Below, piece by piece: positions 18,046 to 20,304 of a DNA stretch of 20,521 nt. The position numbers and the translations under genes were made by a program. The stretch's first letter is position 1. Every line of letters starts with the position of its first letter. The notes beneath the pieces are model-generated. The model made no database searches, was not told where the DNA came from, and saw only the letters and a list, made by a program, of their open reading frames with translations. Origin of the DNA: a virus; IMG/VR virus record IMGVR_UViG_3300021170_000082, positions 1 to 20,521 of that record. One strand, given 5' to 3'.

Positions 18046-19407
18046 TCAGCCGAAGGTCGCCGAGAAGGCCGAGACGGACTCGATGCGCATGAAGAACTGG
18101 TTGTTCTCGATCAGGGTGCCGTACATGGTCTTCCACCCGACCACGCGAAGCTGGTTCAGCGGGTCGGACTTGTCGGCCTCCTTGAGGTACGTGAACTTCA
18201 CGTCGTCGAGCATGACCTGACCGTAGGCGCCGCGGGCGATGACGAAGGTCGGATAGACCGTGACACCCGTTGCGGGCGCCGCCGGTGGCTGCTGCGCAGC
18301 GCCGGTGCCGGTGATGATGACGGTCGATCCGGCCGCGAGCTGCACCGCCTGACCCGCGAGCGGACCAACGGTCGGGCCTGATGCGGTCAGGCCGAGGTTC
18401 GAGCTCGCCATCGTTGCGGACGTCGAGATGTAGACGTTGTAGGTGAATCCGGTGGTCGACGGCAGTTTGACCGAGATCGATCCGTTCGGGCCGGTGACCG
18501 ACTGCGACGCCGAAATCTGGTAGATTTGGCTCTCGAACTGGTTCTGCGTGTCGGAGCCGGTGACCTCGATGTAGTAGGTCCCGGTCGCGAGATTGCCCGC
18601 CGCGCCCGGCGTGTAGGTCAGGCCCGCCGAGTTGTTCGCGATGCCGGTCCAGAACGGCACCATGTTCGATTCGCAGAACCGGATGCCGTTGAACTCGCCG
18701 GCCTCGAAATTGTAGAGGCGGTTGATGTCCGAGTAGGACCACGCGGTCTGCACCTGGGAATTCTGGCGCAGGTCGGCGGCGACGAATGGGTGGATGATCG
18801 AGGTGTAGTGCGGCATCTGCCGCGGATTCTTCGACGCCTTCGCCCCGCCCGCGTCGGCTTCGAGCTTGGTGTCGGTCATCTCGTCGCCCATGAAGCGAGG
18901 GGCGCCGAGGTTGAACATCATCGAGTAGGAGCGCTGGACCTCGAACGGGCTGAGCACGTCGCCGGCAACGAGCGAAGCACGCGCGCCGCGCGAATTGACG
19001 TAGTTGATCTGCGTGCCGGAGTTGAGCGTGTTGAAGGTGTTGCGCTCCAGCGTTTCCGCGACCTGCAGGCCGACCAGTTCGGTCGCCTTCTGAAACAGCG
19101 GATGGTAGATCGTCATCTCGGCGACGTCGGTGATCGTCACCTTGTCGCCCCACTGCTGCGCGACGGCCGAGACCTGCTGGATCGTCATCGTCTCGCCGAT
19201 CGGAGGAACGCCTTCGGAGAGCGGCGAGAGCGGCAGCGGGATGCGCAGATAGCGGGTGGCCGTGTAGGTGGTCCCTCGACCTTTCGGGAGGGTCAGCGGA
19301 TCGCCGAACTGGTAGGCGACCAATTGCTTGCGGGTGAGGGGAAGGGTTTTCTCGGCGATGTAGGCAACGATATCGCTCGAAAATTGCGAAGCCTGATTGA
19401 CAGCCAT
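18046..19407 (-). CDS. Major capsid protein, N4-gp56 family, 453 aa
   Basis: Residues 20-125 match the N4-gp56 pattern: KTLPLTRKQLVAYQFGDPL, then RYLRIPLPLSPLSEGVPP, QQWGDKVTITDVAEMTIYHP and LVGLQVAETLERNTFNTL. The C-terminus also fits (VYPTFVIARGAYGQVML, DPLNQLRVVGWKTMYG, NNQFFMRIESVSAF, about 384-448). Between them, about residues 255-378 are a beta-rich, threonine/serine/glycine-rich insert (GTYYIEVTGSD, FTYNVYISTSATM, STVIITGTGAA) that looks like an Ig-like domain facing outward. ATG at 19407 has GAGGG at five bases, about 40 bases after the scaffold gene. The protein forms the icosahedral shell. Confidence 0.85.
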   Translation of the reverse strand: MAVNQASQFSSDIVAYIAEKTLPLTRKQLVAYQFGDPLTLPKGRGTTYTATRYLRIPLPLSPLSEGVPPIGETMTIQQVSAVAQQWGDKVTITDVAEMTIYHPLFQKATELVGLQVAETLERNTFNTLNSGTQINYVNSRGARASLVAGDVLSPFEVQRSYSMMFNLGAPRFMGDEMTDTKLEADAGGAKASKNPRQMPHYTSIIHPFVAADLRQNSQVQTAWSYSDINRLYNFEAGEFNGIRFCESNMVPFWTGIANNSAGLTYTPGAAGNLATGTYYIEVTGSDTQNQFESQIYQISASQSVTGPNGSISVKLPSTTGFTYNVYISTSATMASSNLGLTASGPTVGPLAGQAVQLAAGSTVIITGTGAAQQPPAAPATGVTVYPTFVIARGAYGQVMLDDVKFTYLKEADKSDPLNQLRVVGWKTMYGTLIENNQFFMRIESVSAFSATFG

Positions 19408-19448: not shown

Positions 19449-20186
19449 CTAGATAATCACGTCCTTCAACCGACTCTCGGCGGTGTCTCCCGCCTTGCCG
19501 CGATTGGAGGGGGCATCCCCCCTGCCGCTCCCCGGCGCTACCCGCTGCGATTCGACCCGCCGACTGGCCTGCCGCCTCGCTGGTCCCGACTTGCCCGCCC
19601 CCTCAAGAGCGCGTTCGCCGAGAAGAACCTTCAGGATGATCTCGCGCTCGACCGGCTGGCCCTTGCGCAACTGCTCCTGAAACCTGTCCTCCACCTCGCC
19701 TTTGAACTTCGCGTAGACCGGGTTGATCGTTGCCTTCGCGTCGTATGCGGTCTTGTCCATCAAGGCCGCGGTGGTCATCTGATCCTGGTGACGCTGCTGC
19801 GCGAATTCGCGCCGCATCTGCGCCATGTCGTCTGCGTTTCTCTCCTCGGGGGTCATCAGCGCGCGACGCGCTTCGTGGACTTCCCTCGAATCTCGATCCT
19901 GCCGCTGCCATGCAGCGCGCTTTGCTTCCTCTGCCTCTCGCCGTGCGGCTGCCGCTTCCTCGCGCGCCGCCTTGGCTTCGTTCGCCAGACGCTGGATTCG
20001 GCTCTCGGCCCGCCCCGGCTTTGCAGCCGGTTCGGCGTCTACTTCCGGTTGCCCATCGTCTTCTTGGTCGTCAGCGTGTTCGGCGGATACTTCGCTGTCG
20101 TCGTCCCGCTCTGGGGCGTCCGACCCGGCGGCGTCTTCACTTTCGGTCCCTGTGACGACTTCCTCGTCATCGCCTTCACCCGCCAT
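19449..20186 (-). CDS. Scaffold-like capsid assembly protein, 245 aa
   Basis: ATG at 20186 has AGGAG six bases upstream. The first 55 residues are strongly acidic (GDDEEVVTGTESEDAAGSD and similar). Residues 60-135 are a coiled coil (ESRIQRLANEAKAAREEAAA then RREAEEAKRAAWQ). The last 50 are basic and probably flexible (ARRQASRRVESQRVAPGSGRG), ending SRLKDVII. This acidic head, central coiled coil and basic end, placed directly before the capsid gene, is the usual layout of phage scaffolds, whose basic end binds the capsid. It is transiently inside the procapsid. Confidence 0.75.
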   Translation of the reverse strand: MAGEGDDEEVVTGTESEDAAGSDAPERDDDSEVSAEHADDQEDDGQPEVDAEPAAKPGRAESRIQRLANEAKAAREEAAAARREAEEAKRAAWQRQDRDSREVHEARRALMTPEERNADDMAQMRREFAQQRHQDQMTTAALMDKTAYDAKATINPVYAKFKGEVEDRFQEQLRKGQPVEREIILKVLLGERALEGAGKSGPARRQASRRVESQRVAPGSGRGDAPSNRGKAGDTAESRLKDVII

Positions 20187-20269
20187 TTTCCGCTCCTGTG
20201 ACTTACGGCCACCAGTCGAAATCCCCTTACGGGGGCAAGTCGTTTCAGCGACTTACGGTCGCCAGTCGA
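20187..20269 (-). promoter_or_regulatory. Structured leader of the late operon: three tandem stem-loops
   Basis: In the - strand transcript three stem-loops follow each other: GCGAC-CGTAA-GTCGC (20262-20248), CCCC-CGTAA-GGGG (20235-20223) and GTGGC-CGTAA-GTCAC (20212-20198). All have the same CGTAA loop, while the stems differ but stay paired (C-G against T-A, A-T against G-T). The last stem ends directly beside the AGGAG ribosome site of the scaffold gene. The predicted transcription start lies at the first repeat, so the leader is little more than these hairpins. A binding site for a regulatory protein is inferred. Confidence 0.6.
20200..20268. repeat. Three tandem copies of a 19-base repeat
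   Basis: On the - strand CGACTGGCGACCGTAAGTC (20268-20250), CGACTTGCCCCCGTAAGGG (20242-20224) and CGACTGGTGGCCGTAAGTC (20218-20200) are spaced 26 and 24 bases apart. The outer two differ at two positions; the middle copy differs more but keeps CGACT, CCGTAAG. As DNA each could also be an operator, but the CGACT...AGTCG dyad is complete only in the first copy. Confidence 0.7.
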
Positions 20270-20275
20270 TGTTTC

Positions 20276-20304
20276 AGATTAACTGTTAGGGATAAGTCCG
20301 TCAA
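20276..20304 (-). promoter_or_regulatory. Sigma-70-like promoter candidate for the late operon
   Basis: On the - strand TTGACG (20304-20299) matches the -35 box at five of six positions. It is followed after exactly 17 bases by TAATCT (20281-20276), a weaker -10 box with three matches. Transcription would begin near 20269, right where the three-hairpin leader begins. No other such pair is obvious in this gap. Confidence 0.5.

Follow-up and report, generated by a model that had tools for sequence, protein, structure and literature searches.

Tandem RNA hairpins lead the capsid operon of a soil phage and belong to a hairpin signal conserved across hundreds of phages

We found that the leader of the scaffold/capsid operon in a 20.5-kb virus record of a soil phage (20,521 nucleotides, called "the window" below) is an array of three short hairpins, a conserved, cis-placed, sense-strand RNA element with a specific linker and loop. 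The underlying hairpin signal is conserved across hundreds of phages, and the family is well supported and without a match in Rfam (no family of Rfam 15 reached threshold for the hairpins or the leader). The hairpins of the array probably recruit a regulatory factor, and the wide distribution of the signal argues against an operator specific to the scaffold and for a shared partner that is probably provided by the host.

Leader and operon lie on the minus strand of the window. A -35 hexamer (TTGACG, 20299..20304) and a -10 hexamer (TAATCT, 20276..20281) separated by a 17-nt spacer predict a transcript start near 20269, 1 to 5 nt before the first hairpin unit. Three units of about 24 nt follow in tandem: unit 1 (CGACUG-GCGAC-CGUAA-GUCGC-UG, 20246..20268) with the stem GCGAC/GTCGC, unit 2 (CGACUU-GCCCC-CGUAA-GGGGA-UU, 20220..20242) with 4 base pairs (CCCC/GGGG) and an outer G-A mismatch, and unit 3 (CGACUG-GUGGC-CGUAA-GUCAC-AG, 20196..20218) with the stem GTGGC/GTCAC. 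Unit 3 abuts the ribosome site, and the Shine-Dalgarno sequence AGGAG (20193..20197) sits directly 3' of stem 3 and contacts it. The array is followed by a gene for an acidic protein of 245 aa (19449..20186, ATG at 20186) and the gene for the major capsid protein (18046..19407; phrog_1357, E 6e-34; PF25209, 29.9 bits with a cut-off of 27). We treat the 245-aa protein as a scaffold candidate, a label taken from its position and composition; it is kept upstream of the capsid gene in relatives, and neither the protein nor ten of its homologues gave a profile match.

The loop CGTAA is identical in all three units, and the motif CCGTAAG occurs three times in the window, each time in the leader. An earlier note on this DNA had described the promoter-like pair, three same-loop hairpins with different paired stems, and a last stem touching the ribosome site, all of which we confirmed, the hairpins being far from chance. 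It had also pointed to two stem positions that keep pairing between hairpins 1 and 3; both are indeed paired, but just one is a compensatory double change (C-G to U-A), the other being one-sided (A-U to G-U). Folded singly, each of the three units forms the described hairpin. The minimum-energy fold of the whole leader is unexceptional (z = -0.96), so that single-sequence folding is no proof of the array and comparison with relatives has to provide it. A competing hairpin that joins units 1 and 2 in the window's own fold was rejected because a check by eye did not find it kept in the leaders of relatives.

Relatives were collected by a capsid search (80 loci among the matches listed) and a wider search (80 more, overlapping in part). 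The DNA before their scaffold genes mostly encodes one to three hairpins, with loop, spacing, and flank alike almost everywhere, and the shared unit can be written as 5'-CGAC-U-N-(5-bp stem)-CGNWA-(stem). Its length is fixed, with CG at positions 1-2, a stem of at least five pairs, and the loop from position 12; C1, G2, C12, G13, and A16 are invariant in 70 distinct units, though the units had been selected partly by these positions. Loops read CGTAA, CGTTA, or CGGAA, others being rare, and the loop-closing pair can be C-G, G-C, A-U, or U-A. All five stem pairs show double changes (70 units, 131 cells), with a score that none of 500 shuffles reached. Because these units had been preselected for pairing, the fair test is a count on units chosen by sequence only: 67 of 94 were fully paired in the leaders, compared to a mean of 8.9 and a maximum of 17 after swapping of arms, whereas outside the leaders (the other 581 kb of these loci) just 1 of 82 was. 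Related phages, in which the earlier note had proposed to look for its refutation, thus carry both conserved hairpins and compensating changes, which supports its description of a promoter-started leader of repeated RNA hairpins ahead of the scaffold/capsid genes.

At least one perfect unit is found at the same place in 89 of 113 distinct leaders, spanning capsid identities of 34-100%. Leaders without a perfect unit mostly carry shifted or variant hairpins, and the array was missing on inspection in seven relatives (L078, L302, L277, L281, L332, L286, and L327). At the near end of this range, a 41.4-kb contig (L001) with a 100% identical capsid gene has a leader that matches the window's. A TTGAC..N17-20..NANNNT pattern precedes the first unit in 52 leaders, in 37 of which this unit starts 7-11 nt past the -10 hexamer. 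Loops mostly follow each other at 24-26 nt, and the last stems form a main cluster 9-22 nt upstream of the start codon; the array spans from about +2 to the ribosome site. One relative, L143 (49% capsid identity), has its three-unit array directly behind an intrinsic terminator, with no promoter seen in between. Stems frequently contain a G-U pair that would be an A-C mismatch on the opposite strand; acceptance of G-U in one strand only indicates that it is the sense RNA that folds.

Near-complete relatives (41-46 kb) have significant unit matches only at the leader of the capsid operon, and a combined promoter-plus-unit pattern had no matches outside this operon: All tested matches were confirmed to have the capsid gene except L254, which is another stretch of a contig already represented by L015. 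The array lies in the middle of the virion module, downstream of its large conserved genes (683 and 720 aa). Outside this module, almost no gene is common to the window's virus (G001) and three array-carrying relatives (G003, G012, and G020), as judged by simple ORF calling with one query genome, an approach by which short or diverged proteins could be missed.

The same unit is also present in unrelated phages. A single-unit pattern matched at least 120 stretches in viral contigs, compared to 4 with a permuted loop and 2 with a permuted flank, which shows that flank and loop belong together, and the three free pairs are all complementary in 79 of 93 parsed sites. The contigs of 71 of 89 distinct sites lack the window's capsid family, though a few of these 71 are scaffold leaders on contigs that end before the capsid gene. 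No match to the unit pattern was found in 398 Pseudomonadota genomes. A model of the unit (R1) mainly found one site per genome (20 unrelated records), with matches in Burkholderia phage Mica, Bordetella phage PHB04, Pseudomonas phage IME307, and Xanthomonas phages f20-Xaj and DIBBI; E-values of R1 and of the second model introduced below (R2) are rough given their short calibration. Genes neighboring the unit in unrelated phages encode DNA polymerase, helicase, Cas4-type exonuclease, SSB, glucosyltransferase, and major head proteins of other families, and the unit precedes DNA polymerase, helicase, SSB-neighbor, and other capsid genes.

Some of these units precede tRNAs: At 5 of the 71 sites, two of them related, a tRNA starts 6-11 nt downstream, compared to 3 of 710 random positions, and DIBBI is a further case found separately. 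Units a few nt before a phage tRNA are located at L111 5916-5937, L126 4492-4513, L157 13950-13971, L168 62-83, L198 10180-10201, and L247 1612-1635. A second recurring motif, CACGCATGG...CCAGCCGTG, was seen just 3' of the unit in L177, L182, L187, L211, L155, and L169, where it looks like a stem interrupted by an internal loop.

In many unrelated phages, the unit forms the third helix of a larger RNA, GCCCAGC-P1(AGGUGGCG..GUAACA)-GCAG-P2-CGAC-P3, in which P3 carries the CGUAA loop. An alignment of 13 sequences has 97.8% of its pair cells paired and double changes at 11 of 18 pairs, which none of 500 shuffles reached. This RNA occurs about once per genome (L155, L157, L158, L166, L176, L192, L208, L209, L137, and L231) and had no Rfam match. 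Of 60 unit sites of what we call type b, 36 have a second helix that ends right at the CGAC linker, compared to 9-18 at shifted positions, which gives two stem-loops with a short linker between them. R2, built from the 13 aligned sequences, matched phage HK022 (L242 39765-39880, 29.3 bits), there only near 39.8 kb in the late region, and phage P22 just after rha (L364 1516-1633, 28.0 bits). Both elements lie upstream of the terminase genes in the late region, P1 and P2 being conserved and the P3 loop different. Conservation of this region extends to 162 phage records, and 1103 of 5426 E. coli genomes gave a match to it. HK022 and P22 are 94% identical in this region and therefore count as one case. 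The link between the three-helix RNA and the P22/HK022 element is suggestive.

We tentatively favor the reading that the leader is a cis-acting signal of the nascent transcript, analogous to put or nut sites, that would work through a shared trans-acting partner and act on transcript elongation. On this reading, the scaffold-capsid mRNA would have a 5' leader made up entirely of phage-specific recognition modules, each composed of an unpaired CGAC linker and a short hairpin with free stem sequence and a CGNWA (usually CGUAA) loop. The partner may recognize linker and loop and would bind the modules during transcription of the leader; it would be shared by many hosts, and the RNA polymerase of the host or another host factor is a likelier candidate than the scaffold. 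Binding would alter the fate of the leader's own transcript, with anti-pausing or antitermination and consequently strong expression of the capsid operon as our best guess, and extra modules would raise occupancy.

Several observations count in favor of such a nascent-leader signal: covariation together with position-specific conservation, a transcript predicted to begin at the first unit, the single cluster per genome in near-complete relatives, flank-plus-loop specificity and absence from the Pseudomonadota genomes, and the G-U pairs that identify the sense RNA as the folded form. Recurrence of the unit in unrelated phages, mostly at one site each and including positions before tRNAs, points the same way, as do the type b sites, whose two stem-loops and short linker recall put RNA. 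Should one and the same partner serve all phages, the scaffold cannot be that partner and the tRNA-adjacent copies imply that translation is not the sole target. Since almost nothing is shared outside the virion module, a host partner is favored, and the distribution, the tRNA copies, and the few shared genes together favor action on the elongating polymerase or the 5' end of the transcript. Counted against the reading are the mismatch between the unit and HK022 put, the location of the array amid the virion module instead of at its start, the contact of the last hairpin with the ribosome site, which suits translational control equally, and the inconsistent presence of downstream terminators that would need readthrough: Terminator-like sites follow the capsid gene in 11 of 96 relatives, compared to 2 in a control stretch, and none was found in the window, counts that by themselves speak neither for nor against antitermination. 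A broader version is possible if doubtful, namely that CGAC plus the CGNWA hairpin is a phage-wide signal for capturing one conserved host factor (polymerase, ribosome, or ribonuclease), deployed either as tandem arrays at capsid promoters or as the last helix of the three-helix RNA with its divergent relatives in the P22/HK022 late region.

Scaffold feedback acting on the leader RNA was what the earlier note had proposed, with another phage or host RNA-binding protein as the alternative candidate. More generally, an autogenous operator would have the scaffold, the capsid, or a 140-aa protein occupy the modules cooperatively as far as the ribosome site and stop its own translation. The array does reach that site, carriers conserve hardly any phage genes beyond the virion module, and autoregulation of the P22 scaffold is a known precedent. 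However, flank, loop, and paired stem do not occur only with the phage's own scaffold gene but also precede tRNAs and unrelated genes in phages whose capsids are of other families, and the scaffold gene of P22 itself is not preceded by a unit. We also rejected the arginine-rich basic C-terminal tail of the scaffold as the RNA binder because relatives that lack the array keep this tail. Together, these findings weaken the proposal, and we consider an autogenous operator unlikely; translational operators and RNA stability are still serious competitors of the favored reading.

We assign a similarly low likelihood to a 5'-end stabilizer or processing signal, in which hairpins would shield highly expressed transcripts from RNase E/RppH-type decay while elsewhere the adjoining helix would be cleaved to expose a CGAC-hairpin end. 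A transcript predicted to start with a hairpin and type b sites that adjoin capsid, SSB, and tRNA genes, with the helix ending exactly at CGAC, would fit, but a general stabilizer should occur at several sites per genome instead of about one, and bases of CGAC and the loop that never vary point to recognition of a specific sequence. A host RNA-binding protein that controls translation by recognizing modules near the ribosome site seems rather improbable: The phage-restricted distribution would agree with hijacking of a host factor and the array abuts the ribosome site, but the tRNA-adjacent copies do not fit. DNA-level sites (protein-binding repeats or recombination/replication signals) that form hairpins by chance could account for the regular 24-26 spacing and the few copies per genome, but are very improbable given stems that vary freely with pairing kept, G-U accepted in one strand only, and fixed placement from promoter to ribosome site.

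If the broader reading of one phage-wide signal is true, phages would have a second natural way to reprogram the gene expression of their hosts by RNA only. The family sits on genes of the most abundant phage proteins, was found only in phages among the samples searched, and is common to unrelated phage groups, so that naming the partner would reveal a host or phage handle used by many phages. The design of free stems and a fixed loop lends itself to clean mutants for testing.

Our literature search, mostly of open-access text, found no description of the hairpin signal, and mimicry of CRISPR repeats was discarded because the match of hairpin 2 to CRISPR-DR36 (17.8 bits, E 0.12, gathering score 38) is at chance level. 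Among known systems, P22 scaffold autoregulation resembles the leader in its outcome, feedback on the same kind of gene, but the P22 scaffold region lacks the unit, and in other phages the array's unit shows no tie to scaffold genes. Lambda-type nut/boxB sites have a stem of about 5 bp and a five-base GNRA-like loop near the start of an operon and are thus similar in stem size, loop length, and position; unlike them, the array has tandem copies and a CGAC linker, and no shared N-like protein was seen among the array carriers compared, where short or diverged proteins could be missed. The put RNA, which binds the zinc-binding domain of RNA polymerase beta' and suppresses termination, is a nascent RNA of two adjoining stem-loops just past a phage promoter that requires no dedicated phage protein (PMC9378689). 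Identity of the array with HK022 put is ruled out by R1, whose best E-value in HK022 is 0.09 with nothing significant, and HK022 put lacks the CGAC-CGUAA unit and serves early operons whereas the array serves scaffold and capsid. What both have in common is the arrangement of adjoining stem-loops near a promoter, the array's first unit following the -10 hexamer by 7-11 nt in 37 of 52 leaders.
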